Shown here: positions 29,899 through 59,452 of the stretch, piece by piece
Position numbering within the stretch: position 1 is the first letter of the stretch
How the letters are laid out: the number at the start of each line of letters is the position of its first letter
Assembly (NCBI RefSeq): GCF_000003815.2
Contig: NC_049992.1
Location: forward strand, 11,999,450 to 12,063,449
Reading direction: 5' to 3'
Length of the DNA: 64,000 nucleotides
Origin: Branchiostoma floridae
Taxonomy: Eukaryota; Chordata; Leptocardii; Amphioxiformes; Branchiostomatidae
Program-made: the position numbers and the translations under genes
Notes under the pieces: model-generated
Databases searched by the model: none
The model's input: only the letters and a program-made list of their open reading frames with translations
What the model was told of the DNA's origin: nothing

Positions 29899-29904
29899 CC
29901 ATTA

Positions 29905-36332: not shown

Positions 36333-36350
36333 ATGCACCTATCAATGTGA
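36333..36350 (+). promoter_or_regulatory. Docking site D1 (reverse complement of the selector element)
   Basis: ATGCACCTATCAATGTGA lies 319 nt downstream of the exon 9 donor and is the exact reverse complement of the selector consensus. In the pre-mRNA it can pair over 15-18 nt with any selector in the array. Position just behind the constant exon is the same as the docking site of the insect Dscam exon 6 cluster. It is the only inverted copy at the 5' side of the array. Confidence 0.85.
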
Positions 36351-37737
36351 ACCCTGAGGGAGCAGTACAAACACACTGCGCTGCAAAAATCCACAGTGTC
36401 ACTATGACAGTGTGTGACAAGAAGGAATTTTCTTTTGACATTTGGCCAGGGTTCATTACAAAGTGCCGTTTCGCAGATTAAGCGTAGAAACGTTGAAACT
36501 CTGTTTTTGACGGATGGGTGTTTGTGTCTGTTTCTATAACTTCTTGTCTGGGCATAACACAATTTGACAAAAAACAGTCACTATTTTGCTATGTGACAAG
36601 GATCATGTTTACTATTCCTGCTTTTATTTTAGGTTGAATTTGACAAAAAGAAATATTGATAAAGCCTTTGTTACCTATGGTATCATTTTCTACAAACTAA
36701 AATTCTTAGTAATAAAAACTACAAAAATGCAAGTCATGTTTGGTATGCTCAGACAATGGAGCCCATCAAATGGATGGCTAGTATGTTGAATGCAAGCAAA
36801 GAGGACACCAATACATGAATGTGTAGGAGAGAAAAGGACGGCCACAAAGGTAAGGTTAATATGGAAGATGGAAAAAAAAATGTTGGCAAGAGTGACCATT
36901 GAGTTCGTACAGAAATGTTTGAATGACTGTTATAGAGCTTATGATAAGCATAATACATGGGAAAAGGTTTTGTCTGTTCCTATCCTTGGGAAGTGAAGCT
37001 GTTCTTATCATAACAGTGCAAAATTTTCCATCATACTGCCATAGGCAGAAAGGTGATAGTTTCTTACCATTTGTGTCAAAGGTACCTGAATACTGTGGAT
37101 TAGTGTGGAAGCGGTTATACACATAATAGAAATGGTTCGAGAAACAAACAAGACTATCTATCAATTCTTCCTCAGGGTTTATTCTGAGGGGGAACTGTGT
37201 TATATCTGTGTTAGTAGGGAGTTTGTCAGTCTGAGGAATACTCAAGTGGTTCTATCTCAAGTTTGACTTGTTTTGAGAATCTACAGTCTTAGTTGTACAT
37301 CACAATGGTATATTCTTGGCTGATACAATTGGGGTCTAACGGATGAAATGGTCTCACCCTGTAGTGATCTATACATGACCAACTTGAGGCAGCATGATAG
37401 GATTGTTGAAGATCTATGACCACTAGACCATTTTAGTCTGGAGCTAACACATATAGATCAAAGCAGTACTAGTGCCTGACCCTATAAAGTGTTACACTTA
37501 GAGTTAGAGCCAGTTTTGATTAGAAAAATACTCAAGATCCATTAGCTAATCTTATAATTTGCGTAGTGTCTGGCAGACTTTGCATTTTTATGACCAGTTT
37601 CTAGCTCTTGAGTGTAGATATTGAAGTCATGAAACATCCCTGTTTCACACACCAAATTGCAGGTAGTTCCAATGATACCAGTGTGAACATCCTGATGGAA
37701 TAGCTTGTAATTCTCTGCTGTCTTCGGTTCCTTTCAG

Positions 37738-37878
37738 AGCAAATTCACTTTCCAATTGAGCCAGTCCATCCGGAACTGGAGGCGGAAAAGCAGATCAGGG
37801 TTTCCAAATCGCTGGAGTTTCTGGCAGAAGTTAGCTCACAGATCTGGTGAAAAACAGCCAAGACATTCAGCCTCTTAA
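37738..37878 (+). CDS. Variable exon V1
   Basis: Acceptor TTCCTTTCAG. Encodes SKFTFQLSQSIRNWRRKS and a 28-residue basic, aromatic tail (46 aa), then TAA. First exon of the array, 1.7 kb behind exon 9. No selector precedes it. Confidence 0.75.
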   Translation, partial: SKFTFQLSQSIRNWRRKSRSGFPNRWSFWQKLAHRSGEKQPRHSAS

Positions 37879-38435
37879 AAGATCAGATACAAATGAAACC
37901 CAAACTGATAGGTCCATTATGTTTAGTTGATGTTGTCAATTTCAGACTAGTTGATGCCGTGTCCCACATAGGAACAAAGAAATGGTGGCTTTATTTAATG
38001 ATTCAGGCCATCTGCCCATTACTGCATTAGAACATTTATCAAATGTATAGCGAAAGTAGATGACGAATATGTATAGAGAATTGTATTCAGCTCATAAACG
38101 GAGGCATGTCTGCTGATTTTGTTGAAATACAAAAACGTCAGTATTTAGGGAATCAAATCATATTTGCTAATGGGAAACCTTATGTGGCCAGTATGAAATT
38201 TTTTGAAGTTGTCAGTTACTGGAGTTGTATTAAAAGTTTGTATTTGACCAACCTGCTCTTAGAAAATTTCCTTGTTATTCTTTAGAGTTGGTTTTAGTAC
38301 CCCTGATATTGGATGCAAATTAATCTATTCTCTCAGGATCCAATATATGATGCTTTCCACCCCTTCCAATAAAGTACATGTTGTGAAAATATTGTCTGTA
38401 GAATTCTGAGAAAGTCTTTCTGATTCCCGTTCCAG

Positions 38436-38510
38436 AGTGAATTCCTGACTGTTGTTAGTCAGCGTGTCCGCAACATGAGGAAGAGGAACTTGATTCCGTA
38501 CGTGACTTAA
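38436..38510 (+). CDS. Variable exon V2
   Basis: Acceptor CCGTTCCAG. SEFLTVVSQRVRNMRKRN, 24 aa, TAA. A GTACGT overlaps the last codons, one of few donor-like sites in a V exon. No selector. Confidence 0.75.
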   Translation, partial: SEFLTVVSQRVRNMRKRNLIPYVT

Positions 38511-38631
38511 GGGCACAGTTCCTTCTGCTAAACATAGCCCGGTGTTTCTAGATGAACTGGAAGAAAGACTTAAGTTTGTTACAAAATTAGACAGGTCAGT
38601 TAACTTAAGACTTTCATGATCTCCTTTCCAG

Positions 38632-38739
38632 AGCTTTTTAATGACTGATATTAGCCAACGAATCCGAAACTTGAGGAAAGAAATAAGGAGAAAGGGCCAG
38701 GATGGAGGAGGCAGTCTGTTGGAGTCGCTCTCAGGATAA
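38632..38739 (+). CDS. Variable exon V3
   Basis: Acceptor CTCCTTTCCAG. SFLMTDISQRIRNLRKEIRR, 35 aa with a Gly-rich acidic end, TAA. No selector. AATAAA at about 39078 lies downstream. Confidence 0.7.
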   Translation, partial: SFLMTDISQRIRNLRKEIRRKGQDGGGSLLESLSG

Positions 38740-39135
38740 TGGATAACCTTGCAAGACTCCAGTCAAGATAGTTTAAGCACTCAGGGTTGAAGGGCTAGTT
38801 TCTAGTCTCATCTGAATGAACTCTGTGGTTAGTTGATAAAGATATCCTCCATCTAGAGTAGCAAGAAATATGTGTTGCTGACAGCAACAAGGGCCATTTA
38901 AGTAGATGATTTAAGCAGGTGCAATAATTTGAAACAAAGGAAACAAAAAATGATCAGTGTAATTTTCAGTATATTAGCGTTGATCTGTTACTACTTTAAA
39001 CTTATCAACAATTTTTGTATATTCTGACACATTTTAACATTTCTTAAATCTGGGCTTTTTGTAATAGCTTGTCTTTGAATAAATGTAAATGCAGGAAATA
39101 TAAACCCCTGAAGTTGTCTTAATTTGCATCCACAG

Positions 39136-39216
39136 GCCTTATTTACGAGGACACTGAGTCAGTCCATCAGAGATAGCCGTTACAGATTGAGTAAGAAATT
39201 TCGCAAGTTCCCGTAG
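39136..39216 (+). CDS. Variable exon V4
   Basis: Acceptor GCATCCACAG. ALFTRTLSQSIRDSRYRL, 26 aa, TAG. Last of the four proximal exons that have no selector. Confidence 0.75.
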   Translation, partial: ALFTRTLSQSIRDSRYRLSKKFRKFP

Positions 39217-39404
39217 GCTAAAGACAAAGTAAGTGTGCTTGGCAAATAGTAAAACTTTTAAGCATTGAGGTCACACTTCACTTCTGCATCTTCTGTTAGT
39301 GGATACACTTATTACACTATTTGCTAAATAAAGGTAGAACAAATGATATGTGCTGGCTGATGGGTTGGTATTGATAGGTGCATCGTTCTTTCATATGGTT
39401 TCAG

Positions 39405-39593
39405 AGAAGTTTCACAAACCAGGTCAGCAAACGCATCAGGCAGAAGAAGTGGAGGCAAAAGAAAGAGCCTGGGATTGACACCATTATGAAACTATCAGCA
39501 AAAATCTGGAAATTTGTTACTGTCCTGTTGACTTCTAAAGTTCAATCAACCAAGTGGTCAGAAATTCCTGCAAGCAATATATGTTTGACTTAA
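39405..39593 (+). CDS. Variable exon V5
   Basis: Acceptor GGTTTCAG. RSFTNQVSKRIRQKKWRQKK and a long tail (62 aa, the longest V exon), TAA. Its selector at 39369 is the first of the array and lies only 20 nt upstream, overlapping the branchpoint region. Confidence 0.75.
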   Translation, partial: RSFTNQVSKRIRQKKWRQKKEPGIDTIMKLSAKIWKFVTVLLTSKVQSTKWSEIPASNICLT

Positions 39594-39708
39594 TATACAT
39601 TAGACACCATAAGGGACCAGTTAAATTTTTAGAATTATAAAAAAAGCTCCAGCTTTTAATATGCAAGACTTTTTCCTTCAAATTTTGTCCTTATTACATC
39701 TGTTACAG

Positions 39709-39810
39709 GATTTTGTCAAGAACTTGTCCAAGAATGTGAGCCAAAGAAGGTGGAGAGCAAAGAAAAAGTTTGGTATAAATGTTACAAAGAACAGACTTTT
39801 CAAGTTCTGA
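39709..39810 (+). CDS. Variable exon V6
   Basis: Acceptor CTGTTACAG. DFVKNLSKNVSQRRWRAKKK, 33 aa, TGA. One codon shorter than usual before the conserved Phe. Shares the selector of V5. Confidence 0.7.
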   Translation, partial: DFVKNLSKNVSQRRWRAKKKFGINVTKNRLFKF

Positions 39811-40213
39811 AATTGATAGACTTTTCTAGGGCTTAATGTCCTTGAAGTTTTGTATTGTCTGGTCAGATATCAGGTCATGCTGTCATTATTGATATAAAAT
39901 TGTAACTGGATGAGTCAGTTGGCATTTTCTGTTGGTTTGTCATATTTCACCATTATTTTAATGTAATGCTACAATACACAACTGTGTAAGATGGAACAGC
40001 GTACTTTTTGTATACTTACAAAAAATGTAAATCCCATCCATAGTATTGATGACATTGGTAGGTGCATCAATGACTGATTCAGATTGTTCTAGTATGTATT
40101 ATTTTTTAGCCATAAAAGACTTACTCAAAATTATCAATACAAAAAGTAGGCAGCTTCTGTTTATTATTATTATTATTACTACTACTACAGTTTATTATTT
40201 GCATATGTTGCAG

Positions 40214-40300
40214 CGGGATTTTGTTCTGAAGCTGAGCCAAACCATCAGATTCAGACGATGGAGTGACAAATACAAACCCTCCAGAAAGAAAAGATTTTAA
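40214..40300 (+). CDS. Variable exon V7
   Basis: Acceptor ATATGTTGCAG. RDFVLKLSQTIRFRRWSDK, 28 aa with basic tail, TAA. Selector 40052 (TTGGTAGG variant). Confidence 0.8.
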   Translation, partial: RDFVLKLSQTIRFRRWSDKYKPSRKKRF

Positions 40301-40484
40301 GTTCATTTTAAGTTGCCTCAGTACAGAATACAACACATATTCCTATATTTGTGTGTCTGTGTTTTTTGCCTGTTAGTTTGGTGCAGAGCTACAGAAAGAT
40401 TGACACTTTGTGCTAAAATGAAATCATGGTCCGACAACCTTGCTTTCCAAAAATAAGTCAGTTAATGAACCTTTCTTTTTCCAG

Positions 40485-40553
40485 AGTTCCTTTACACGAA
40501 AACTGACCAAATCCCTGCAGCGCAGGAGGTACTACCTAAAGCACAACCGCTAG
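40485..40553 (+). CDS. Variable exon V8
   Basis: Acceptor CTTTTTCCAG. SSFTRKLTKSLQRRRYYLK, 22 aa, TAG. No selector of its own between V7 and V8. Confidence 0.75.
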   Translation, partial: SSFTRKLTKSLQRRRYYLKHNR

Positions 40554-40872
40554 GAGTGGGGCTACTGAGAGAACTAATAGATCTATCCTGTATAGAGTTG
40601 ACATTGATAGGTGCATCAGACTAAGACTTGTCAGTTTCCGTTCTCATGTCATTAGACAGTCAGTTAATCAGTTGCCAGCGTTGTGTTCAATGGTTTCTAA
40701 TCAATATTATATGATAGAAGGGTATAGAATCACGAAAAAGTGTGTTCTATGTTTAGCAAATGAATAATCTGTTCTTCAACTGAATATTGACGGGTGCATC
40801 AGCATCTGTCTAATTCTTAATTCATGTTTTTCTTTGAAGATTTCAAATTTTTTTGTTCTCATTTTCTTTCAG

Positions 40873-40941
40873 AGTGCCTTCACACTGAAAATGAGCAAAA
40901 GCATTCGTCGTAAACGCTACCATTTGAAACACAATAAATAA
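40873..40941 (+). CDS. Variable exon V9
   Basis: Acceptor TTTCTTTCAG. SAFTLKMSKSIRRKRYHLK, 22 aa, ends KHNK-TAA (like V8, a duplicate). Preceded by two selectors, 40601 and 40784, with no exon between them. Confidence 0.8.
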   Translation, partial: SAFTLKMSKSIRRKRYHLKHNK

Positions 40942-41089
40942 ACGTGTTATTAACAGTGCGGCCTATTGTCTGGGTAGGACTTAATTGCAATATCAATGTC
41001 AAAACTGTTATGGAGGCACTTGTATGTCTGCAGTTCAGGTCTGAGACTTAAGTGGTCAAGTTTCATTTGACATTTTCTCGTCATTTCAG

Positions 41090-41191
41090 AGTAAGTTCTC
41101 GTTTGTACTGAGCAGACGTATGCGGTATGTACGGAAACTAGTGCGAGAAAGTCGACAACAACATCATGTAGCAAGGGAAGAGGAAACATGA
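41090..41191 (+). CDS. Variable exon V10
   Basis: Acceptor GTCATTTCAG. SKFSFVLSRRMRYVRKLV, 33 aa with a His/Gln/Glu tail, TGA. No selector found in front. Confidence 0.75.
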   Translation, partial: SKFSFVLSRRMRYVRKLVRESRQQHHVAREEET

Positions 41192-41554
41192 TATAACAAG
41201 AGTCCGAAATTGTTGCGTACGTTGTTGTGTAATGTGTATAATACTCCCCAACCTATGTTTACGAGATAAACCTAATATAAGCATATTATTGGTAAGGAGG
41301 AAAATTTACAATTTATTACCTAGTAAGGGTATAACATTTCGGTAGCATATATGTATTTTATAAGTCTGTTATATTATTTGTTAGGCTTAAAGGAACTTCC
41401 CTTCTCCCCCTCAGCTAACATTGGTAGGTGCACTTAAGTAGAAAATAGAGGCAATAATAGTAAATAATTGTATTTTTCCATTCCTTTCAATGACCTTCAA
41501 AGAATCTATTAAATGCTTCAACCAAAGGTTGATTTGACATTGTATTTTTTGCAG

Positions 41555-41638
41555 AGTCAGTTCTCAAGGAGATTGACTAAGACTTTACAAAACAGACGGT
41601 ACTACGAGAAACACTGTGTAAACCCAAAAGGCAGTTAG
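41555..41638 (+). CDS. Variable exon V11
   Basis: Acceptor TTTTTTGCAG. SQFSRRLTKTLQNRRYYEK, 27 aa, ends NPKGS-TAG. Selector 41418. First of a triplet (V11-V13) with matching introns. Confidence 0.8.
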   Translation, partial: SQFSRRLTKTLQNRRYYEKHCVNPKGS

Positions 41639-41858
41639 TAGTGAATGGAGGTAGTAGACATGGTTTAGATTTTAGTTTGGAAGCATTGATGGGTGTATCA
41701 GTAGCAGGTGTTCATAGTTTTCTTTGAGTGGTGGAGTAAACAGCACAACTCCTACTATTGCCAATGTCAATAGAACGTTCTGTTGTCATTAAAAACCTTG
41801 TGGTATACGTCTAAGTATGTTTCAACCAAGGGTTCATTTGACATTCATATTTTTGCAG

Positions 41859-41942
41859 AATCACTTCACAAGGAGTTTGTCTAGGGCATTGGCAAACAGC
41901 CGATACTACAAGAAACGGTTTATTGACCCCAAAGGTAGTTAG
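41859..41942 (+). CDS. Variable exon V12
   Basis: Acceptor ATTTTTGCAG. NHFTRSLSRALANSRYYKK, 27 aa, ends DPKGS-TAG. Selector 41683. Confidence 0.8.
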   Translation, partial: NHFTRSLSRALANSRYYKKRFIDPKGS

Positions 41943-42157
41943 TGGCTGGAGGTAGCAGACATGGTTCAAATGTCCATTTGGAAGCATAGATATGTGCATC
42001 AGCAGTAGCAGCCTTGTATCAAGTGTTAAATCATTTCTTTGGGTGGGGGAAGGCAGCACAACTTGTAGTGCACCTAGCAAGATCAACGTTCTGTTGTCAT
42101 TTAAAGTGTGGCATGTGTTTCAACCAAAGGTTCATTTTGACCTCTGTATTTTTGCAG

Positions 42158-42241
42158 ACTCAGTTCACTGGAAGGTTGTCTAAGACATTGGCAAACAGCC
42201 GGTACTACAAGAAACATGGTAAAAGTCCCAAAGGGAGTTAG
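42158..42241 (+). CDS. Variable exon V13
   Basis: Acceptor TATTTTTGCAG. TQFTGRLSKTLANSRYYKK, 27 aa, ends SPKGS-TAG. Its selector (41984) is degenerate. Confidence 0.8.
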   Translation, partial: TQFTGRLSKTLANSRYYKKHGKSPKGS

Positions 42242-42358
42242 TGGCTAAAAGTGGTAAAATCTCAGTGTGGAAGCATTGATAGGTGCAACAATAGGTTTCT
42301 TTTAGTTGTGGAAAAGACAGCAGAACTTCTTATGTATAATCTCCATTTTCTGTTGCAG

Positions 42359-42430
42359 AGCATGTTCACAAAAAGGTTAAGCAAGTGTTTGAAAAATAAA
42401 CGGTATCGAGAAAGGTACCAAGAGAGATGA
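42359..42430 (+). CDS. Variable exon V14
   Basis: Acceptor TCTGTTGCAG. SMFTKRLSKCLKNKRYRER, 23 aa, TGA. Selector 42274, only 70 nt upstream. Confidence 0.8.
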   Translation, partial: SMFTKRLSKCLKNKRYRERYQER

Positions 42431-42752
42431 AGTCAGGGGTGTTGAAGAGGTAATTATACCTTGCCTTGGGCCACTTGAGATTCAAAGGTAATTATTTTGC
42501 AAATGCCAAAAAAAAAACTTTTACACTTTGCTAACTGGCATTACTTACAGCTTTATGTGGCATTATAGAAAATAAACAAACAGGTACAATTGGCTTGACA
42601 TTGATTGGTGCATCTACAAGGGGAGATATTTCCATATTGTTTTGTTTCAACTCAAAGAAAGATAAAAACATTTTACATACATGTACACAGTTGCTGCAGC
42701 TTTCAGTAACCAGTAGTTTGAAAGGCTAATGTTCTCTGTGGTCCCTTTCCAG

Positions 42753-42875
42753 AGCAAGTTTTCCGCCCAAGTAAGCATGTTTCTCCGTCGCAAACGGTAC
42801 AAGACCAGGAAAGATGGTAAAGACATCCCCTGGCGCTGTGAAAGGAAAAGAATGTCATTTGGTGGGTTGTCATGA
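42753..42875 (+). CDS. Variable exon V15
   Basis: Acceptor CCCTTTCCAG. SKFSAQVSMFLRRKRYKTR with a 21-residue basic extension (40 aa), TGA. Selector 42598. Its stop codon is embedded in the next selector (42869). Confidence 0.8.
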   Translation, partial: SKFSAQVSMFLRRKRYKTRKDGKDIPWRCERKRMSFGGLS

Positions 42876-42966
42876 TAGGTGCATTGAGGGCACAGCAAAC
42901 GGTTTTTGATGATGAAGATTGTAGTTTTGTTATATTGATTCAGCTCTTTTCTTTGTCCCTTTCCAG

Positions 42967-43038
42967 AGCAAGTTTACACAGCAATTAAGTAAGTGCATCC
43001 GGTGGAAAAGATATGTGACAAAGAAGTATAAACCATAA
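42967..43038 (+). CDS. Variable exon V16
   Basis: Acceptor CCCTTTCCAG. SKFTQQLSKCIRWKRYVTK, 23 aa, TAA. Selector 42869. Confidence 0.8.
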   Translation, partial: SKFTQQLSKCIRWKRYVTKKYKP

Positions 43039-43170
43039 GCACAGGACCTCACAACAATGGTTGAGATACCCCTCAATGGTTATATTGATAGGTGCATTAA
43101 TCTACCCAGTTTTGGACATCTAAGTTCTATGCATAGCTATGACAATTTTTTCATCTTGTATATTTTTCAG

Positions 43171-43242
43171 AGGCAATTCATAAAAAAAGTTAGCCAAAAA
43201 ATTAGGATGACCAGGTGGCGGGAGAAATTTAGTGACAAGTAA
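43171..43242 (+). CDS. Variable exon V17
   Basis: Acceptor ATTTTTCAG. RQFIKKVSQKIRMTRWREK, 23 aa, TAA inside a good donor-like string (ACAAGTAAGC). Selector 43083. Confidence 0.8.
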   Translation, partial: RQFIKKVSQKIRMTRWREKFSDK

Positions 43243-43721
43243 GCACTCCTCTGTGGCAGTAAGTACCAGACTAGGATATTGCCTGATTCTGTGAAAGGGA
43301 TATGACATTGTATGGGATACAACATTAAATACATTTGCAAGAGTTCCCTTTTGACCATCCTCAGTAGCATTGGTAGGTGCATTCCTTGAGAGATTTTGCT
43401 TCTTTGTTTGGTTTTTAAAACTAAAAGCATTTCATATGTCTCCAAACGTAACTACTGGCTTAATTTCCTTGTTTCCTCCTTCCTTCCACATTAGCTGATA
43501 TTACTTCACACACTTGCAATCGTTGCATTACAGTTGTGTTGATTCATTTCCCATTGAAGACATATAAAATAGATCTAAATGGTTGTCATTGCAGCAGTTT
43601 GGGGTTTGTCTGTATCTTTTGTAGATGTCCAAGTGCAAACCCTGCTCTTATGGATAGGCCCAATAGCTAGTCCACCTCTCAGAGTACCAGTTGTGTAGTC
43701 GGTGTTGTGTCTGTCTTTCAG

Positions 43722-43820
43722 CGCCACTTTGTGCAGCGGATGAGTCAGAGCATCCGACACAGGCGACACCACATCAGACACGGGGGCAGACGAAAGTCAG
43801 TGGGGCCCAAAAATGTTTAA
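43722..43820 (+). CDS. Variable exon V18
   Basis: Acceptor TGTCTTTCAG. RHFVQRMSQSIRHRRHHIR, 32 aa, very His/Arg-rich, TAA. Selector 43367, unusually far (about 340 nt). Confidence 0.8.
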   Translation, partial: RHFVQRMSQSIRHRRHHIRHGGRRKSVGPKNV

Positions 43821-44199
43821 AGGAAAACTCCAGGAGAGCATGTATATCATGCATGTTACTGACTGGTCTGACTACATAGCACATCTTGACTTGCTAAATT
43901 ATGAAAACATGGTTCAGTTTGCCGTCATACAGATCGTGAATTTTGCCCATGGTTTGAACATTGACAGGTGCATTTAAAACCCAAGCATTATTGCCAAAGT
44001 GTCAACCTGCTTTGCAGCTAATAGATATTGTACGGTCATTTTGACCAAAACAGATTGTTACAGACGCCTAAAATATTAGAAAACACTCAGGAAGACCATA
44101 GCTGAGGTGGAACATAATGTGAAAGTTCTTAACATGGGATGTCACAGTTGGCAGTGGGTAATAGTATCTTACCAACGTTCTGCTGATGTTAAATTTCAG

Positions 44200-44280
44200 G
44201 GCGAGTTCAACATACAACTGAGTAACAGGCTGTGTCATTTGCGGAGAACAGACAGGGGAAAGGACCAAGGACATAAATAA
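44200..44280 (+). CDS. Variable exon V19
   Basis: Acceptor AAATTTCAG. GEFNIQLSNRLCHLRRTDR, 26 aa, TAA. Selector 43958. Confidence 0.8.
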   Translation, partial: GEFNIQLSNRLCHLRRTDRGKDQGHK

Positions 44281-46735: not shown

Positions 46736-46765
46736 TATTTCAGTTGGGTTTACTTTCATTTTCAG

Positions 46766-51335: not shown

Positions 51336-51536
51336 ATAAGCATGTATAGCAAACTGTACAAGGCAAGCAACAATAGGCTAAGTCTCTTGGTGCGCATTGG
51401 TGCATTGCCCAACACTTGTGTACCTGTATGTAAATCTCGTGGATAAAAGATGCCACAATCAACTTAAGTAACCTCCTTTCTATCAGGTTCTTGGCCGTAG
51501 TTACAGCAAAGGTTTAGTGTCTGATTTGTATTTCAG

Positions 51537-51632
51537 GATGCCTTTGGTCTTCTGGTGCGCAAGAGGATGTACAATGCTAGGAGGACAACAAAGAAAAGGG
51601 AAAGATCTCAGCAAAATACATGGCATTTGTAG
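51537..51632 (+). CDS. Variable exon V39
   Basis: Acceptor TGTATTTCAG. DAFGLLVRKRMYNARRTTK, 31 aa, TAG. Only a shortened selector-like string (CATTGGTGCATT, 51393) precedes it. Confidence 0.75.
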   Translation, partial: DAFGLLVRKRMYNARRTTKKRERSQQNTWHL

Positions 51633-51805
51633 CAAAGACAGATACTGAGATAAAGAGGGAAGAAATGCTTCGAACCAGGGTACATTGATAGGTGCATCTG
51701 TAGGAATATATTGTGACCCCATGATCTGAACAGGGAAGTTGGGAAGGGCAGGGTTCACCAGGGAGGGCTTTAGTAGCTCTTATCTAGAATTTGCTTTACT
51801 TCCAG

Positions 51806-51928
51806 GAGCACTTCTGCAGGCAAATGTACACCAGAGTTCACCATTGCAAGTGGCTCACTAAGAAAAAACTTAAAGCTAGGATGGAACTATTGGAAGAGAC
51901 GGGGCAGGACAGTTGGCACAAAATATAG
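51806..51928 (+). CDS. Variable exon V40
   Basis: Acceptor TTTACTTCCAG. EHFCRQMYTRVHHCKWLTK, 40 aa, TAG. Selector 51682. Only 68 nt separate its stop from V41. Confidence 0.8.
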   Translation, partial: EHFCRQMYTRVHHCKWLTKKKLKARMELLEETGQDSWHKI

Positions 51929-51996
51929 GTAAAAGTCCTTTTATGTCTTAAGAGATAAAGGCACACAACATTACCACATTCCTCTCCCACTTCCAG

Positions 51997-52113
51997 GATG
52001 GCTTCCTTAAACAGCTATGCAATAGGCTCTACCACGTAAGATGGACCACGAAAAAAAAGTTGAGGGGAAAAATGAGCAGTGGACAAGGAAGCTTCAAGTT
52101 CAAGAAGAATTGA
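51997..52113 (+). CDS. Variable exon V41
   Basis: Acceptor CCCACTTCCAG. DGFLKQLCNRLYHVRWTTK, 38 aa with Lys-rich tail, TGA. No own selector. Confidence 0.8.
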   Translation, partial: DGFLKQLCNRLYHVRWTTKKKLRGKMSSGQGSFKFKKN

Positions 52114-52236
52114 CTCCCACTCCACGATAGTGTATAACGTGTTAGATACATGGAATATTTAGAAAACACCACTGTATTTCTGTACACCTTTAGGTATATA
52201 ACAATGTTTTAGATGTCTTTGGTATTTCTGTTACAG

Positions 52237-52353
52237 GAGACCTTTGCTAAACAGATGTGCAAGAGAGTTTACAATGTTAGATGGACTACAAAGGAAAGGG
52301 AAAAAGCAGTGGCAATACATAAAGCGGGAAGAAGTCAAGGGCACATGTTCTAA
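52237..52353 (+). CDS. Variable exon V42
   Basis: Acceptor TTCTGTTACAG. ETFAKQMCKRVYNVRWTTK, 38 aa, TAA. Third exon behind the selector at 51682. Confidence 0.8.
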   Translation, partial: ETFAKQMCKRVYNVRWTTKEREKAVAIHKAGRSQGHMF

Positions 52354-52570
52354 GACGTAACAATTTAAAGAAACTGCCTTTTCAATAGGTTCTTGTGTAC
52401 ATGTTTGTGCATTGATAGGTGCATTTCATAGGACTTGGTTGTTTCTCATGTCAGTAAAACAACTGTTGATGTTGCTGTTATTAGTCTTAAAACATGGGAA
52501 TCGGTTGCATGTAAGTCCAGGCTATGCCTGTGACAGCTACTGCAACAGTATTTATCTTGCTGTTTTACAG

Positions 52571-52678
52571 GATATCTTTGCTAAACAAGTACACAGGAGA
52601 GTCAACCATAACAACTGGATCTCAAAGAGAGAACTTAAAGCCAAGATAGCTTGTGAGGAACAACTTTTTTTTACATGA
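52571..52678 (+). CDS. Variable exon V43
   Basis: Acceptor GCTGTTTTACAG. DIFAKQVHRRVNHNNWISK, 35 aa, TGA. Selector 52409. Confidence 0.8.
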   Translation, partial: DIFAKQVHRRVNHNNWISKRELKAKIACEEQLFFT

Positions 52679-52767
52679 AGGCCCCTAGAAAAGTCTGCTA
52701 GAAAAATTGACAACCACTTGTCATGCATATAACAGTATTGTTTTATATCTCTTGTCCTCCTTCACAA

Positions 52768-52827
52768 AGTGGCTTCATCAAACAGTTGAGAAAAAGGATG
52801 GCTAATGTCAAGTGGTGGTCAACATGA
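52768..52827 (+). pseudogene. Variable exon V44, acceptor destroyed
   Basis: The frame SGFIKQLRKRMANVKWWST-TGA is intact and closely matches V47, but the expected CACAG|AGT acceptor reads CACAA|AGT. The nearest AG lies one base into the exon's second position and would shift the frame. Probably a recently silenced exon. Confidence 0.65.
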
Positions 52828-53058
52828 TAAAGACTACTAGGACTTAAAATAACAAATAACAGAACACTAGAAAGGCAAACCTTTTTGCGGGCTGGCCATT
52901 TAACCAATAGTTACATTGATGGGTGCATCATGTAGTGAGGGCTTTGTTTCTTAAGTCAATACACTAACTCTTCATTCCGCTCTTAAAAAGTGGGCGTCGG
53001 TTAGATACAAGGCTATTCCTGAAACTGCCACTTTTTTTAGCATTTACTTTGCTTACAG

Positions 53059-53184
53059 GACATCTTTGCCAAACGAGTATGCAAGAGGGTCTACCATAAC
53101 AGATGGATGTCTAAACGGCAACTCAAAGCCAAGATGGCTTGTCAGCAAGAAAGGAAGGGATGGACAAGTACATTTTCCTCGTGA
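53059..53184 (+). CDS. Variable exon V45
   Basis: Acceptor TTTGCTTACAG. DIFAKRVCKRVYHNRWMSK, 41 aa, TGA. Selector 52913. Duplicate of V43. Confidence 0.8.
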   Translation, partial: DIFAKRVCKRVYHNRWMSKRQLKAKMACQQERKGWTSTFSS

Positions 53185-53295
53185 AATCTGCGGATGCTTA
53201 GTCAACTGTAAAAGTGACTGCAGGATATATGAATTAGAATGTGTCATTTCTTCTACCCGTACGAATTATTGTTTATATCTTATTTACCTTCACAG

Positions 53296-53361
53296 GGTGA
53301 CTTCGTCTCAAAGTTGAGAAGCCGGTTGGATTATGTCGGGTGGATGGCTTTTAAGCTCTGA
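53296..53361 (+). CDS. Variable exon V46
   Basis: Acceptor CCTTCACAG. GDFVSKLRSRLDYVGWMAF, 21 aa, TGA. Lacks the basic end (WMAFKL); same intron context as V44 and V47. Confidence 0.7.
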   Translation, partial: GDFVSKLRSRLDYVGWMAFKL

Positions 53362-53626
53362 AATTAAAGGCAAGAATTTCTTAGAATATTTAAAACTTTA
53401 ACTTATCTTTAAGGACTTGTAGTATATCAGTAAACTCAGGGTGAAAATTTAGGACAGGGCCCTATGTTGCCTGGGAATGTACATATGTGTCTGTCAATGT
53501 AAGTCTTGGTTTGGCCATTTAACTAATACTAAGTACATTGATAGGTGCATCAAGTAGTCAGGCAGATAAAACAGAGTATTTCAGTTGATATGACAATCAC
53601 TTTATTTCTCTTATTGTCCTTCACAG

Positions 53627-53686
53627 AGTGGCTTCACCAAACAGTTAAGCAAAAGAGTCACCAATGTCAGGTGGAGAAGGAAATAA
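53627..53686 (+). CDS. Variable exon V47
   Basis: Acceptor CCTTCACAG. SGFTKQLSKRVTNVRWRRK, 19 aa and TAA: essentially the bare consensus helix. Selector 53535. Confidence 0.8.
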   Translation, partial: SGFTKQLSKRVTNVRWRRK

Positions 53687-53964
53687 ATGACAATGATCAT
53701 TTCTTAAGATTTCTCAAAGACATGGGTTTAGAAAGGAAGACTTAGTAACAGTCCTGTCTTTTAGAGTTGACATAGCTATACTTCCATATCATGTATGATA
53801 CATTGATAGGTGCATTCCTTTTGGCATGTTATTTGTTACATGTATCTGTAGTTACATAGAAGATGTGATCTGTCTCTTGTTCATAAGCTGAATTGAACGA
53901 AATATTCTCAGCTCTTTTGAATATCCCATCTGCCATTAAATTGTCTCCCCGGCTTTCCTTTCAG

Positions 53965-54051
53965 CGTGAGTTCAGTAAACAGTTCAGGAAAAGAATCAAC
54001 AATGAGAGATGGAAGGCAAGGGAAACTGGGAAGTCCACTGGGAAGGAATAG
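53965..54051 (+). CDS. Variable exon V48
   Basis: Acceptor CTTTCCTTTCAG. REFSKQFRKRINNERWKAR, 28 aa, TAG. Selector 53800. Confidence 0.8.
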   Translation, partial: REFSKQFRKRINNERWKARETGKSTGKE

Positions 54052-54079
54052 CACCTGTGTAATATCAACAGTTTAACAC

Positions 54080-54361
54080 AAAGGGAACCATGAATTCAGT
54101 AGCACATGTTAAAGCTATGCCACAGTCCTATCAAATAGATGTCCAACACTAAGCAGATCCTACCTCTAGTTACTGTAGACTACTGTTCAAAATGCTGACA
54201 CAGAAATATGTTTCAGGCCAAAGGGGACCATGTATTCAGTACTAGCGCATTTGCCACAGTTCTATCAAATAGATGTCCAACACTAAGCAGACCCCACCTC
54301 TAGCTGTCTGTTACTGTGGACTACTGTTAAAAATGCTGACACAGAAATATGTTTCAGGCCA
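54080..54361 (+). repeat. 140-nt tandem duplication of an intron and its acceptor
   Basis: 54080-54219 and 54220-54361 are two copies of one unit (CTATCAAATAGATGTCCAAC and CTGACACAGAAATATGTTTC in both). The first copy carries a full AATATGTTTCAG acceptor at 54216 with no V-type exon after it. Confidence 0.85.
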
Positions 54362-54456
54362 GGTTTGTCAGACAACTGAGCCAAAGGATCTGCTGGTGCA
54401 GGTGGAAAGAGAAAGGAAAGAGGAAAGTCCCTGGGGGCTCAGGAAGTCAGACTTAG
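54358..54456 (+). CDS. Variable exon V49
   Basis: Acceptor ATATGTTTCAG. ARFVRQLSQRICWCRWKEK, 32 aa with Gly/Lys tail, TAG. No own selector; the intron before it contains the 140-nt duplication. Confidence 0.8.
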   Translation, partial: ARFVRQLSQRICWCRWKEKGKRKVPGGSGSQT

Positions 54457-54654
54457 CGACAAGAAAGTTTACCTGTAATACAAATAGCAACTGCAAATTT
54501 TCCCTTAGTAGTGGTTAAAAAATGCTGGCATTCTGAGTACATTGATAGGTGCATAATAAGGTTATTTTGTGTTGAATGTCGTATGTTTCCAAGAATGATT
54601 TGAACAGTACATTTCTCAAGCATGGTGATGATTTTTTCCTGGTTGCCTCTCCAG

Positions 54655-54747
54655 AGCGCTTTCAAGAAACAGCTTAGGAAAAGGGTCAACCATGTAAGAT
54701 GGACCACCAACAAAAAGATTCGCCAGAGCTTTAGAAAGCAACCTTAA
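54655..54747 (+). CDS. Variable exon V50
   Basis: Acceptor CCTCTCCAG. SAFKKQLRKRVNHVRWTTN, 30 aa, TAA. Selector 54539. Near-identical to V51. Confidence 0.85.
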   Translation, partial: SAFKKQLRKRVNHVRWTTNKKIRQSFRKQP

Positions 54748-54950
54748 GGGTTAAGACATTGATAGGTGCAATGACAAGTTCGGATTTTAGGTTCAACATT
54801 TTATTGATTCAACTTTGACATTTTGATAACATTGACAGGTGCATAAGAAGGTTACTTTTGTGCTGAATGTTGTATGCTTCCAAAAATGATATAACCAGTA
54901 ACTGTTCTTGTTACATGCTTGGCCTGATTTTTGCTTGGTTGCTTCTCCAG

Positions 54951-55043
54951 AGCGCTTTCAAGAAACAGCTTAAACAAAGGGTCAACCATGTAAGATGGAC
55001 CACCAACAAAAAGATTCGCCAAACTTATCGAAAACAACCATAA
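54951..55043 (+). CDS. Variable exon V51
   Basis: Acceptor GCTTCTCCAG. SAFKKQLKQRVNHVRWTTN, 30 aa, TAA. Two selectors (54756, 54829) precede it. Confidence 0.85.
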   Translation, partial: SAFKKQLKQRVNHVRWTTNKKIRQTYRKQP

Positions 55044-55132
55044 GGGTTAGGACATTGATAGGGGCATAAGGATGAACTTGACACTTAGTTTAACATTGAG
55101 TCTTGTAATGCCATCTTCCCTTCCCATTCCAG

Positions 55133-55195
55133 AGCAAGTTCGTAAAACAAATCAGTCAGAGGTTGCGTAAGGAAAGATGGGCTGCAAAGAGATGA
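55133..55195 (+). CDS. Variable exon V52
   Basis: Acceptor CCATTCCAG. SKFVKQISQRLRKERWAAK, 20 aa, TGA. Selector 55052 has a T-to-G change in the core. Confidence 0.8.
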   Translation, partial: SKFVKQISQRLRKERWAAKR

Positions 55196-55436
55196 TCTCA
55201 GCCACACTGCAGTTGCATCTAAGCACAGAAAATCACAAGGGAATCAAAAAGCAAGCTATTAACAAGGAGTTTTTGTATAAAATCATGTCTACATGTAGAG
55301 CCTTCCATGTTGAGCTATGGGAATTTGTTGCCCAAAAGCTTCTTTTTGTAAATCTCATGAGCTTTGCTAGTCTATGGTTTACAGTACAGAACTTAAAGCA
55401 TCACTGATTCATCTGTATCTCTTTCTCCCATTGCAG

Positions 55437-55514
55437 AGTAAACTTGTCAAACAACTAAGCCAGAGGTTGTGTAAAGTAAGGTGGGCAGAAAAAAGAGGGT
55501 CCTGGACTTATTAA
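55437..55514 (+). CDS. Variable exon V53
   Basis: Acceptor CCCATTGCAG. SKLVKQLSQRLCKVRWAEK, 25 aa, TAA. No own selector. Confidence 0.8.
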   Translation, partial: SKLVKQLSQRLCKVRWAEKRGSWTY

Positions 55515-55725
55515 ATACTTGTACTAAACAGTATCAGGAGTGGTAAGATTCTGTCGGGAGGTTGATATACATTTGTGTATTTACAAAACTCCATCACATT
55601 GATAGGTGCATCAACTTAAACTGACTTATTATGAGGGTATTGTTGCAACCTGAAGTGATTTCAGTGCACAAGATTTTGTGTTGTGTCTTTTCCTGATGTT
55701 GCAATTTGAAGTTTCTAATAGTGAT

Positions 55726-55728
55726 TGA

Positions 55729-55759
<31 letters not shown>
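55726..55759. repeat. (GAAA)n microsatellite
   Basis: About eight GAAA units between a selector (55596) and V54. Confidence 0.95.
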
Positions 55760-55814
55760 TGAAAATATGGACCCTTGGTAGGTTTCATAAACGGCTTCTT
55801 TCTCTTTTTTCCAG

Positions 55815-55901
55815 AGCAAGTTTTCACGGCAGCTAAGCAACTGCCTCTGTTGTAGGAGGTACAGGGCAAAGTTGAAAGGCAGACATCTAGACACGCAGTG
55901 A
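55815..55901 (+). CDS. Variable exon V54
   Basis: Acceptor CTTTTTTCCAG. SKFSRQLSNCLCCRRYRAK, 28 aa, three Cys in the helix, TGA. Selector 55596. Confidence 0.8.
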   Translation, partial: SKFSRQLSNCLCCRRYRAKLKGRHLDTQ

Positions 55902-56096
55902 AAGAAAAGACAAGAAAAGAGTACTGCTTTGAGCCATCTTTTGAGTTACTTAAACAGTATCAAACAAGTTCAAAAACCTTCATAACTAACCATACTGTCT
56001 ATTGAGACTTAAAGGGATGGGAATGTCTCTCTGTTTTAGTAGTTTAGATTTGCATTGATAGGTGCACTTTCCTGACCTCTGTAACTTCTGTTTCAG

Positions 56097-56195
56097 AGCC
56101 AATTTACAAAACAGCTAAGCACAAGAAACTGTCACCAGAGATACAAAATGAAACAGGACCAGGAGATAAACAGCAGTGATGCAAAGGAAAGATGA
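56097..56195 (+). CDS. Variable exon V55
   Basis: Acceptor TTCTGTTTCAG. SQFTKQLSTRNCHQRYKMK, 32 aa, acidic tail, TGA. Selector 56052 only 30 nt upstream. Confidence 0.8.
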   Translation, partial: SQFTKQLSTRNCHQRYKMKQDQEINSSDAKER

Positions 56196-56283
56196 GAGGG
56201 GAAAGGGCTTGGAAGAGTAACAAATCATAAAATATTGTCACTGGTTCCTCTATTCTCAATGGTTTTTGCTGCTTGTATTTCAG

Positions 56284-56376
56284 AGATATTTCATCCAGAA
56301 AGTAGCCAGTCGGGTCCGTCACGAACGACGTCTAGTCAAGAGATATCAGAAGAGATATGAACGATATAAGCAGTAG
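56284..56376 (+). CDS. Variable exon V56
   Basis: Acceptor CTTGTATTTCAG. RYFIQKVASRVRHERRLVK, 30 aa, Tyr/Arg/Lys tail, TAG. No own selector. Confidence 0.8.
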   Translation, partial: RYFIQKVASRVRHERRLVKRYQKRYERYKQ

Positions 56377-56531
56377 TGTCCATACAGTAAATATGGTGAT
56401 ATGTCATCTGTTCTATTAGATAAGACGGCAGGAGGAATGCTATCTTTCATTTATTCCACATTGATAGGTGCATCTATTACATGAACCCTCAAGAATGTTT
56501 ATGGTTTTTGTTTGCCTCTCTTTTATTTCAG

Positions 56532-56612
56532 AGTGTATTCCAAACCAAGGTAGCCAATAGGGTTCGCTTTTGCAGGTGGGAAGCAAAGCATCCAAGGGGA
56601 AAACAAGCATAA
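56532..56612 (+). CDS. Variable exon V57
   Basis: Acceptor TTTTATTTCAG. SVFQTKVANRVRFCRWEAK, 26 aa, TAA. Selector 56458. Confidence 0.8.
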   Translation, partial: SVFQTKVANRVRFCRWEAKHPRGKQA

Positions 56613-56832
56613 TGGAGGATAAAGCAGCTGTCAATGGGGTTGATTGGCCAGCAGTACATTGCTTTGGGTCTTTGTATAGGTTGCTTGTTGGCTACTTTCA
56701 TTTCCTTATCTAATGTTGAGGTCATCAGCTTCAGTATACCACAGAGAATGTAGCTGAAAGTTGCCAGTTGTTTATGATGTTGAATGATGTTGTAAACAGT
56801 GATTGTGAACAGCTCTATTCTATCCATTACAG

Positions 56833-56922
56833 AGCGAATTCACCAGACACTTAAGCCAAAGCATCCGAGACAAAAGACGACGTTCGGACAAAAAGGCTCA
56901 GATGCTTAGCCATATAGCTTAA
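56833..56922 (+). CDS. Variable exon V58
   Basis: Acceptor TATCCATTACAG. SEFTRHLSQSIRDKRRRSD, 29 aa, TAA. No own selector. Confidence 0.8.
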   Translation, partial: SEFTRHLSQSIRDKRRRSDKKAQMLSHIA

Positions 56923-57181
56923 GATCAAATGTATGGGTTAGTACTACTAGAACGTTAACTACCTCACATGCCCCTGGTCACATTGATAGGTGTATTAACT
57001 GGCTTTCTGATGAGTTGTAGTCATAAATTCTTTGTACTGTCCCTGCAAGAAATGTGTAGCTCTAAACTAGCAAACAAAATTACTAAATGAGACATAAAAG
57101 GATAGACATGAAATCTATGCAGAGTGTAGAATCCCTGTACTTGGCTTGATTATTTATGACTTTGTTGTTGATTTTACACAG

Positions 57182-57256
57182 TCAGAGTTTCACATACAGC
57201 TCAGGAAGAGGGTATGGTTCACAAAAAGGCCAGAAAAAGAAGGGATGGACCAGTAA
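57182..57256 (+). CDS. Variable exon V59
   Basis: Acceptor GATTTTACACAG. SEFHIQLRKRVWFTKRPEK, 24 aa, TAA. Selector 56980 (TGTATT end). Confidence 0.75.
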   Translation, partial: SEFHIQLRKRVWFTKRPEKEGMDQ

Positions 57257-57473
57257 ACCTGGTGAGAAAATGGGATGACCAGAAGTTTCATGGTTGCAAT
57301 AAGTTATGAAAGTTGTTGGGACCTGTGTACATCTGTGTTGAATGTTCAACTCCTACTCTGACAGCCCTCACTGTAGCACATTGATAGGTGCATCAAAGGC
57401 TTTTTAGACCACATGCATTGTCGTGTTATAACAAAAGTTCTGTTAATTACCTCTTGCATTGCTTATCTTACAG

Positions 57474-57593
57474 ATTAAAATAAAGAACCAAATCAACATT
57501 GATGACATTGCTTTGAAATTAAAAAATTACAAGAAATTAAATCTTCTAATTACATCATTTTTAGATCAGATGCTTGAAAAAACATTTCTTTAA
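57474..57593 (+). CDS. Possible diverged variable exon V60
   Basis: An acceptor (CTTATCTTACAG) lies 80 nt behind the selector at 57378 and opens a 39-residue frame (IKIKNQINIDDIALKLKN). The position fits, but the Phe, Arg and Trp of the motif are missing. It may be a decayed exon or chance. Confidence 0.3.
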   Translation: MKIKNQINIDDIALKLKNYKKLNLLITSFLDQMLEKTFL

Positions 57594-57637
57594 TGTTGGT
57601 CAGGATGGTAACAACTTTCATGATTTATTTCTTACAG

Positions 57638-57742
57638 ACCATTTTCACTAGGAAATTGAGTAGGAGAATATGGCATAACAAGTCAAAATCCTACCCGAAA
57701 ACCCAACCCTCTGAGTTCGACCAGGCAGGAATGGACATGTAA
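57638..57742 (+). CDS. Variable exon V61
   Basis: Acceptor ATTTCTTACAG. TIFTRKLSRRIWHNKSKSY, 34 aa with a Ser/Pro/acid tail, TAA. Nearest selector 57378. Confidence 0.75.
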   Translation, partial: TIFTRKLSRRIWHNKSKSYPKTQPSEFDQAGMDM

Positions 57743-58208
57743 AGTCTTTCAAGGTGCAGCACTGTTGGGCAGTTGTGTTCGTGCAACAGCGGTCATCTCT
57801 TGTTATCGGAAGATCCCACTTTGTTTTACCTCCTCAGCAAGCATGTCATGGTTTCTATGTGGCTCTCATGTAGGTTAAATAGATACAGAAAAGGTTAAGC
57901 AAATCAGCTTTAAAATCCTAGGTTCATGCACTGTTCAGATAGCATTTTTGGCACAAAACTCAACTTAAGACATCTATAAGTTAGAAATCTGAAAGATAAG
58001 GTCCAAAACATGTCTCAATCAAAGGCAGGTATCAGAAACTTCTCATAAGGCCAGTGAAGCCACAGTACAAGTTTTTTTTTAAATTCCTGATGTCCTATGT
58101 GGAAAAAGAAAGTGATAACGTTTTACTAACTGCACCCCATAGTCTGCAAATTTTTCTCTCCTTCTCCCCAATATATTCTTCCAACCGATGTCCGTTTTTC
58201 CATTGCAG

Positions 58209-58379
58209 GTAGAGTTTACTGCTCAAATCAGCAAGCGGTTATGGTACGAACGAGAGACACCAAAGAAAAGGGCCAAGAAAAACATGTTCCTTGGAAGTGA
58301 CACTCTCTTAATACCTGTAACTACTAGTGATACAGATAAAATACCTGCAAGTAGTAGTGTTACAGATGAACCTCAATAA
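58209..58379 (+). CDS. Variable exon V62
   Basis: Acceptor TCCATTGCAG. VEFTAQISKRLWYERETPK, 56 aa with a Thr/Ser/Asp-rich tail containing two TDxxxxP-like repeats, TAA. No selector. Confidence 0.75.
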   Translation, partial: VEFTAQISKRLWYERETPKKRAKKNMFLGSDTLLIPVTTSDTDKIPASSSVTDEPQ

Positions 58380-58483
58380 GCTCTGGTCAAGTGTCATAAA
58401 GGTTTTCATGCTGCTCCCTTCACTCTGGTATAAACTGATGTACGTTTTCGTCATCCCAACGCTTGTCTCAATTTACTTTTCAG

Positions 58484-58576
58484 GCTGAGTTAACGACACA
58501 ATTAAGCAAGAGGATACGTCATGTTAGATGGAAAAGAGGGAAAAGAGTACCGAAAATCGTGTCGACATATTCATAA
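58484..58576 (+). CDS. Variable exon V63
   Basis: Acceptor TTACTTTTCAG. AELTTQLSKRIRHVRWKRG, 30 aa, TAA. Phe replaced by Leu. No selector. Confidence 0.75.
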   Translation, partial: AELTTQLSKRIRHVRWKRGKRVPKIVSTYS

Positions 58577-58689
58577 AATATAGTTTATCCAAGCACAGGC
58601 TTCGCGGTTTTTGGAATAGTATGCAGACCTTCGCTATAAATTTGATCAATTGAATGCTGATTGGAAATTTTTCGACCCTTTTTTTGCAG

Positions 58690-58752
58690 TTTGCGTTTTC
58701 TACTCAAGTCAGGAAGAGGGTTTGGAAGATGGAAAAGAAGGGCTTGAAATAG
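58690..58752 (+). CDS. Variable exon V64
   Basis: Acceptor TTTTTTTGCAG. FAFSTQVRKRVWKMEKKG, 20 aa, TAG. No selector. Confidence 0.7.
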   Translation, partial: FAFSTQVRKRVWKMEKKGLK

Positions 58753-58980
58753 ATTGAAAGCTGAGCAGCAAGCAGCAGTTTTCAACTCTGCAATGTACAT
58801 GCTACTGTTTCTCCTTTTCAAGCTCTTTGTGGTTCAGTATGGCCATACTTGTAAGGGGAAAAAAGTGAGAAAAGGCAGAATATTGTTCTCTTGGATGGAA
58901 AACTCAGGCATGATCCTTTTCAATCTGATAATACACAGTAGTACAGATTTTCCATGGTCTTTCTCCCTCTGCCCTTTCAG

Positions 58981-59076
58981 AGGCTGTTCACTAAGCAAAT
59001 CAGCAAGAGGATCAGGGCAGAACGATGCAAGATTAGGAAAAAATGCCAGGTGTTCGATCCAACCCTGCATTCCTAG
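58981..59076 (+). CDS. Variable exon V65
   Basis: Acceptor CTGCCCTTTCAG. RLFTKQISKRIRAERCKIR, 31 aa, TAG. No selector. Confidence 0.75.
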   Translation, partial: RLFTKQISKRIRAERCKIRKKCQVFDPTLHS

Positions 59077-59452
59077 ATTGACAACTTCATATTGGAAGAT
59101 AGTATATAGCTTTCACCTGAGCCAGACATTTAACTTGACCTGTAAAATTGTAGGCTGTAAAGACAAGGTACATTATTTATATTTATAGAACGAAGTAAGC
59201 TGGTCTTAAGTAACCCTCCATCCTTGTAGACATTGATAGGTGCATAGTTAAGACAAGATGTCTGCTATGTATAACATTGAAAATACTGCTCTTAATTCAT
59301 TGCTTCCAGTTTCTGTTCTGAATCATGGGCTAGGGTCAGTCTTGCCTAAAACTGCTCTTGCTTGGTATCACACTCTTGCAGCTTTTTTTTGTTTGGATGC
59401 AGTAACTTCCACTGCTGTAGCCTGGACGTTCATGTTGTAACTTGTATTACAG

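Follow-up and report, generated by a model that had tools for sequence, protein, structure and literature searches.

In the cited accounts, exon 6 of insect Dscam1 has a docking site upstream, behind the constant exon, and a selector before each of its 48 variants, which are internal, are spliced to exon 7, and depend on a repressor for exclusivity (PMC6071210, PMC8787164, PMC8042237). Exon 9 of the same gene is described as having bidirectional docking, with upstream and downstream sites using different selector sets (PMC8042237). In Drosophila Nmnat, the published account has a stem between intronic boxes setting the use or skipping of an exon with its own 3' UTR (PMC10402249), and for the clustered protocadherins the choice is described as one among variable first exons, made on the DNA by promoters and CTCF (PMC8787164). 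Here we analyze a 64,000-nt stretch of DNA from the amphioxus Branchiostoma floridae (the window), for which the original prediction proposed a Dscam-like selection by RNA pairing. The locus also resembles Drosophila mod(mdg4) and lola in having many alternative C-terminal exons on a common body. The 3' exons of those two genes have their own ends, mod(mdg4) additionally undergoes trans-splicing, and we know of no docking site in either.

The constant part of the gene lies on the plus strand. Exons at 28111..28861, 34726..34796, and 35048..35485 match protein P0002; the first has a clean acceptor and donor, and the start of P0002 falls in further N-terminal exon(s) upstream, outside those located here. 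The last constant exon (35778..36014, phase 0) ends with the donor TGG|GTAAGT and gave a single match in the genome search. The four matches obtained with the protein were all Branchiostoma records, and the annotated predicted proteins in Branchiostoma records end in variable exons of the array described below, with differing C-termini. No Pfam family was matched by the constant plus variable domain or by the other frames tested, and the immunoglobulin and fibronectin domains of the Dscam family are absent from them by the same search. No solved structure matched the protein. A fold of P0002 predicted from 4 sequences places the variable part as the last helix, but its low quality (mean pLDDT 34.5) makes it too poor for a structure search. 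Open-licence papers yielded nothing on the gene or the element. The best reading of the sequence is that this Branchiostoma gene would encode a fixed protein body with an interchangeable C-terminus, for which there are about 65 choices.

These choices are provided by an array of 65 predicted, mutually homologous variable last exons (V exons; 37738..60049, plus strand), each of which begins at an acceptor and ends with a stop codon. The profile search that found them required a stop within the exon, so stops are present by construction; 64 of the 65 score at least 14.7 bits in the final profile, and V53296-53361, at 3.3 bits, was kept by eye. YAG acceptors are found in 64/65 V exons, the gaps between exons are as short as 68 nt, and some adjacent units are visibly recent duplicates. 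A search with one V peptide (this peptide only; 11 candidates scored) found no paralogous array, all 10 matches belonging to this cluster.

Donors scoring at least 5.0 bits stand behind the stop in 3/65 V exons versus 2/65 on the opposite strand, and polyA hexamers within 150 nt behind the exon in 8/65 versus 9/65. Because both signals are at control level and the exons run to a stop, the V exons are best read as alternative last exons and not as Dscam-type cassettes. The stop in each V exon and the differing annotated C-termini agree with this assignment; a polyA signal of its own for every exon was not found among the hexamers within 150 nt. Unlike the variants described for Dscam1 exon 6, which are internal and spliced to a common downstream exon, amphioxus V exons end in stops and have no detectable donor. 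Alternatively, with the same pairing or none, V exons might end otherwise, at an unconventional polyA site of their own or through a weak donor to a common 3' exon. In three of the 65 the stop is indeed followed by a fair donor, and weak sites escape the scoring matrix. Against this, donors and hexamers are as rare on the control strand and some gaps measure only 68 nt, and we consider such ends unlikely. In our preferred reading, alternative last exons, the V exons most likely have one distal 3' end in common.

The 17-nt element ACATTGATAGGTGCATC occurs with at most 3 mismatches at 46 places on both strands of the window, against a mean of 0.32 and a largest value of 2 in 100 shuffles. The original prediction had given this number for copies between V exons; the count stands, but only 43 are plus-strand copies in the array (39368..59246), which we term selectors. 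The other three lie on the minus strand: D1 (36332..36348), the docking-site candidate, and two docking-like copies at the far end, D2 (59788..59804) between the last two V exons and D3 (60464..60480) beyond the last one, which contradict the claim that the element occurs nowhere else in the window. Two further plus-strand selectors, at 37902 and 47764, have 4 mismatches and bring the array total to 45, and a stray plus-strand copy with 4 mismatches lies outside the array at 27740.

D1 begins 318 nt past the last base (36014) of the last constant exon, not 319 as first counted, and reads TATGCACCTATCAATGT in plus-strand RNA letters. It had been called an exact reverse complement of the element and is in fact complementary at 16/17 positions. 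Among all 13-mers of 28000-37600, D1 stands alone in its strong complementarity to the array, with 45 near-matches against 13 for the runner-up, and no second docking site for the V exons that lack a selector is prominent there. One intronic site downstream of the constant exon, with many complementary array sites that would compete for it, is the arrangement described for Dscam1 exon 6, and the arrays are of similar size (48 there and about 65 here). As in exon 9, docking copies flank the amphioxus array on both sides; unlike the sites described there, D1, D2, and D3 have the same core and would use one selector set.

None of the 45 selectors overlaps a predicted V exon, even though V exons occupy 29% of the array span; just 2 selectors lie within 50 nt upstream of an acceptor, versus 10.6 expected. 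Identity is at least 89% at positions 2-16 while flanking columns are near random, and position 17, which is C or T in 40/45, cannot pair with D1. Thirteen selectors are perfect 17-mers and 17 are perfect over the 16 nt shared with D1. It is doubtful that the element is a functionless leftover of tandem duplication of V units, with D1, D2, and D3 arising as chance or inverted copies: recent duplicates among neighboring V units and the flanks that several selector-bearing gaps have in common would suit this explanation, but it does not account for conservation confined to positions 2-16, for the avoidance of exons and acceptor regions, or for a count so far above the chance expectation of 0.32 per window.

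Selectors do not precede every variable exon, as they are described to do in Dscam1 exon 6: 43 of the 65 V exons have their own in the preceding gap and 22 have none. The amphioxus system further differs from exon 6 in its nearly uniform selectors and unrelated protein. The distance between a selector and its acceptor is no more constrained than random placement would give (P 0.78). Predicted accessibility is not raised at the selectors (0.395 versus 0.417 when shuffled in place) and is below that of their surroundings, only 1 of 43 having 8-nt windows that exceed the local mean. No Rfam family was found in the window at gathering thresholds.

Computed pairing energies, a check proposed in the original prediction, are far stronger than in shuffled controls. 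The D1 duplex averages -20.0 kcal/mol over 66 gaps, versus -11.4 for shuffled gaps, -12.3 for shuffled D1, -10.6 for the gap minus strand, and -9.7 for V exons, and 41/66 gaps pair with D1 better than all 20 of their own controls. Relative to D1, substitutions in the 45 array selectors comprise 22 wobble-keeping and 7 wobble-breaking transitions and 17 transversions. The 22:7 bias (P 0.0006; 0.037 without position 1) includes related copies, and a hand count by distinct kinds of change gives 5/7 versus 4/9. Within the 15-nt core, the ratio of wobble-keeping to wobble-breaking changes is 13:7 in the array versus 8:21 in remote copies (hand count; Fisher P 0.018). The proposed Dscam-like selection thus keeps its complementary site behind the constant donor, its many competing sites, its pairing above shuffles, and a wobble-keeping bias; it departs from Dscam in its last exons with stops, the 22/65 without a selector, and the two docking-like copies at the far end.

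The 15-nt core at ≤1 mismatch is found at 131 places in the 513.4-Mb genome, 42 in the array and 89 elsewhere, where a dinucleotide model expects 93. The model may be about twofold high, since the reversed core was found 14 times versus 28 expected. Outside the array the core is thus near chance level and not a common repeat; however, some of the copies found there belong to a family marked by a longer motif and by inverted pairs, and the dispersed-repeat objection is only partly answered. Opposite-strand partners within 622 nt (core at ≤2 mismatches) accompany 6 of the 37 remote places examined, in addition to one pair beyond the window, always in the order minus, then plus. A 15-nt upstream motif is common to 18/39 remote sites at P<0.05 and is present in D1 (P 0.001). 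A transposon with inverted ends gains no support: the insides of L037-L043 and of the C14 pair are unrelated (L049, L052, and L067 not compared), and by eye the remote pairs have no target duplication in common, L037 having a possible 3-base one. A search around the 37 remote places found no V-like exons (best E 0.39), and a location at snRNA genes is unsupported, with no Rfam family at gathering thresholds in 38 fetched loci.

These inverted pairs and the longer motif, present in D1 as well, make recognition by a protein a live rival, which we rate as possible but tentative. The element would then be bound by a protein, on DNA or on RNA, and the order of D1 (minus), 43 plus copies, and D2 and D3 (minus) would reflect protein-made loops or pausing, as for CTCF at the clustered protocadherins, though the 17-mer is presumably unlike the CTCF motif. 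The arms of the remote pairs mostly differ independently, L067 alone sharing a changed base, which also suits protein recognition. This explanation leaves the position of D1 behind the constant donor unexplained, the wobble bias is confined to array copies, and the selectors keep the 17 nt only, without the longer motif. The protocadherin clusters are similar in having a large variable-exon array, one repeated element each, and looping that chooses one; in amphioxus, by contrast, the variable exons come last and share one donor.

The best reading is that a docking-selector system chooses among alternative last exons, and we consider it probable. The one donor of the last constant exon would face about 65 acceptors in tandem, and behind each would lie a short coding exon with a stop. 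In the pre-mRNA, D1 may pair with one of about 43 selectors, looping out the intervening RNA and bringing the acceptor some 130 nt behind the chosen selector near the donor, and that V exon would supply the C-terminus. Selectors would compete because D1 holds one partner, and D2 and D3 could engage selectors from the opposite end of the array. Since each V exon closes the coding sequence with a stop and has no detectable donor, their one-at-a-time use would follow from the architecture, and pairing would decide only which is used. An RNA stem choosing a transcript end is also described for Nmnat, there as one stem with two outcomes and no array. Paired recombination signals face each other in opposite orientation, as do D1 and the selectors, and the element could instead be a DNA signal joining V exons somatically to the constant part; with YAG acceptors at 64/65 V exons and a donor on the constant exon, splicing suffices without recombination, and we regard this as highly improbable.

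With the protein matching only Branchiostoma records among four matches and no Pfam family, we infer an origin independent of Dscam. There is perhaps an even chance that a docking-selector RNA switch arose in a chordate without Dscam kinship, choosing one of about 65 last exons that share a single donor and possibly having docking copies on either side of the array, and that it was built as one arm of a dispersed inverted-pair element was duplicated with each exon. If so, a chordate would join the insects in having large docking-selector arrays, and such arrays would serve last exons as well as cassette exons. The inverted pairs found elsewhere would then reveal the origin of the system. Exclusivity would come free from the last-exon architecture, so the choosing role of pairing could be tested apart from excluding, and the near-uniform selector would make competition over distance measurable. 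The locus would also draw attention to an as yet unstudied lancelet gene for which about 65 C-termini are interchangeable.

The gene is modelled with four + strand constant exons (28111-28861, 34726-34796, 35048-35485 and, last, 35778-36014), which join in frame through donors of 5.0-8.1 bits; the last constant exon has a single match in the 513.4 Mb genome. Four Branchiostoma proteins (P0001-P0004) matched a 555-residue query scored across residues 430-555: LOC144884150 isoform X11 (B. floridae x B. japonicum), LOC144924502 isoform X8 (B. floridae x B. belcheri), "mucin-12-like isoform X8" (B. lanceolatum) and C3XYP3 (B. floridae). The first three represent clusters at 90% identity of 86, 35 and 35 sequences, many of whose members we infer to be isoforms. 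The matches indicate one or more additional N-terminal exons upstream. The constant+V domain matched no Pfam family and no solved structure. C3XYP3 also contains stretches of the + strand frames 29485-29898 and 32415-33020, between constant exons and absent from P0001-P0003; the second frame carries a DDE_Tnp_1-like zinc finger (PF13842), which may point to an alternative, transposase-derived insert. Elsewhere in the window, a minus-strand frame (17041-17736) with a P-loop-like stretch, VLVIGKPGAGKSSFINS, resembles a GTPase by eye.

Variable last exons (V exons) were sought with a profile built from nine exons read by eye and iterated over AG-to-stop peptides on both strands of 124 kb. On the + strand, 64 exons from 37738 to 60049 score at least 14.7 bits, and a 65th, at 53296 (3.3 bits), was retained by eye; one further + strand candidate (52689, 11.8 bits) was omitted, as were two on the minus strand (22.3 and 9.4 bits). 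Frame 0 and a final stop were search conditions and so are not independent evidence. A YAG acceptor is present in 64 of the 65, compared with 50% for AGs taken at random, and the sequence ahead of the acceptors is 75% pyrimidine, versus 47%. The C-termini of P0002 and P0004 map to V exons 51997 and 43722 at 100%, and P0001 has its best match at 48196 (54%); that of P0003 maps to 39709 at 82%, which indicates that B. lanceolatum has a counterpart of one or more V exons.

At up to three mismatches, the 17-mer element occurs 46 times in the window (0.32 in shuffles). The original prediction took all 46 for selectors, whereas 43 are + strand copies (39368 to 59246) and three lie on the minus strand: D1 (36332), the docking-site candidate behind the last constant exon, and the docking-like D2 (59788) and D3 (60464) at the far end of the array, which contradict the claim that the element is confined to D1 and the intervals between V exons. 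At up to four mismatches the array holds 45 + strand copies, with identity of at least 89% at positions 2-16 and near-random flanks; 17 lack any mismatch across the 16 nt complementary to D1. None of the 45 overlaps a V exon, and the gap preceding 43 of the 65 V exons contains a selector; the 22 V exons without one include three of the first four and five of the last six. The median distance to the next acceptor is 129 nt, with a spread no tighter than random (P 0.78), and two selectors fall within the last 50 nt before an acceptor versus 10.6 expected (P 0.0008).

Among 13-mers of 28000-37600, only D1 is strongly complementary to the array: it has 45 matches with two mismatches or fewer, and the runner-up, at 29366, has 13. 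Its pairing with the gaps is stronger than in controls: the mean over 66 gaps is -20.0 kcal/mol versus control means of -9.7 to -12.3, and 41 gaps pair better than all 20 of their own controls. Duplexes at or below -14 form with 44/66 gaps, compared with 6/66 gap minus strands and 2/65 V exons. In most of its 8-nt windows, D1 ranks with the more accessible parts of its intron. The selectors have lower accessibility than the sequence around them, and it is not raised relative to versions shuffled in place. Substitutions at 16 selector positions comprise 22 that keep a wobble pair with D1, 7 that break it and 17 transversions (P 0.0006; 0.037 leaving out position 1), P values that flatter because the copies are related by duplication; by distinct kinds, a hand count gives 5/7 versus 4/9. 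Over the core, wobble-keeping and wobble-breaking substitutions stand at 8:21 in remote copies and 13:7 in the array (hand count; P 0.018), the remote copies having been chosen by closeness to the core, with chance hits included. At position 17, 40/45 selectors carry C or T, which cannot pair with D1 but can with D3; A or G at position 1 (39/45) suits both D1 and D2. D1 and the selectors most likely work like a docking-selector system; the locus is neither a Dscam gene nor a cassette-exon cluster.

Genome-wide, the core is near chance level outside the array, but some remote copies form a family. The 15-nt core at up to one mismatch occurs 131 times, 42 of them in the array; the 89 outside compare with 93 expected under a dinucleotide model that a reversed control (14 found, 28 expected) suggests is too high, and exact copies elsewhere number 6 versus 2.2 expected. 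A longer upstream motif, approximately YCCCTNNNGGGTTNA before CATTGATAGGTGCAT, is found at 18 of 39 remote sites (P<0.05, leave-one-out scoring), including L043 5014, L048 1501, L067 651 and L074 651, and in D1 (P 0.001), which matches L043 at 26/28 nt; D2 (0.44) and D3 (0.09) are without it. Selectors outscore their own shuffles for this motif, but we read no longer motif in them because shifting the window by 2 or 6 nt gives similar scores, with most of the gain due to position -1. Some of the copies outside the array thus form a genuine family that includes D1, and for this reason recognition of the 17-mer by a protein retains some weight as a less likely alternative to RNA pairing.

From among the matches listed, 67 remote places were taken, of which 37 were examined (27 with 1500 nt per side, 10 with 650 nt). 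Inverted pairs with a partner at up to two core mismatches occur at six (L037, L038, L040, L049, L052 and L067), and same-strand partners at two (L055 and L070). An additional inverted pair, C14, lies 27 kb beyond the window (L033, about 6687-6879). In all of these inverted pairs the arms are 170-622 nt apart and always minus then plus; the remote loci have no recognised relation to the V-exon gene. L037 also has an opposite-order pair at three mismatches, and only in L067, whose arms are alike over about 34 nt, is a change common to both arms. L055 (892-1884) contains, in a 1-kb span, four + strand core copies at up to three mismatches; a recognisable local duplication holds two of these. In L038, a 409-residue minus-strand frame (5392-6618) that is seven-helix receptor-like by eye lies next to the inverted pair, which is located past the 3' end of that frame. 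An origin of the selectors from an inverted pair, one arm being copied with each V exon, is suggested; PMC6071210 proposes such a scheme.

Within 150 nt past V stops, the best donor averages 1.0 bits; the corresponding averages are -0.1 for the opposite strand and -0.8 for sequence preceding the V exons. Donors of at least 5.0 bits (3/65 versus 2/65 in the control) and polyA hexamers (8/65 versus 9/65) are near control levels and gaps shrink to 68 nt, so the V exons would seem to act as alternative acceptors to a single long terminal exon whose distal end they share, although weak donors or polyA sites behind them are possible. As acceptors of one terminal exon, they would need no special device for one-at-a-time use, which Dscam does require. 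The unlikely alternative, in which V exons have polyA sites of their own or weak donors lead to a common 3' exon, overlaps the pairing readings.

PMC8042237 reports similar pairings in vertebrate genes, so docking-selector pairing in chordates is not new as such, and the portions of the literature surveyed do not mention a chordate docking-selector array of comparable size. What would be new here is the choice among last exons, the near-uniform selector, the size of the array and its chordate host.
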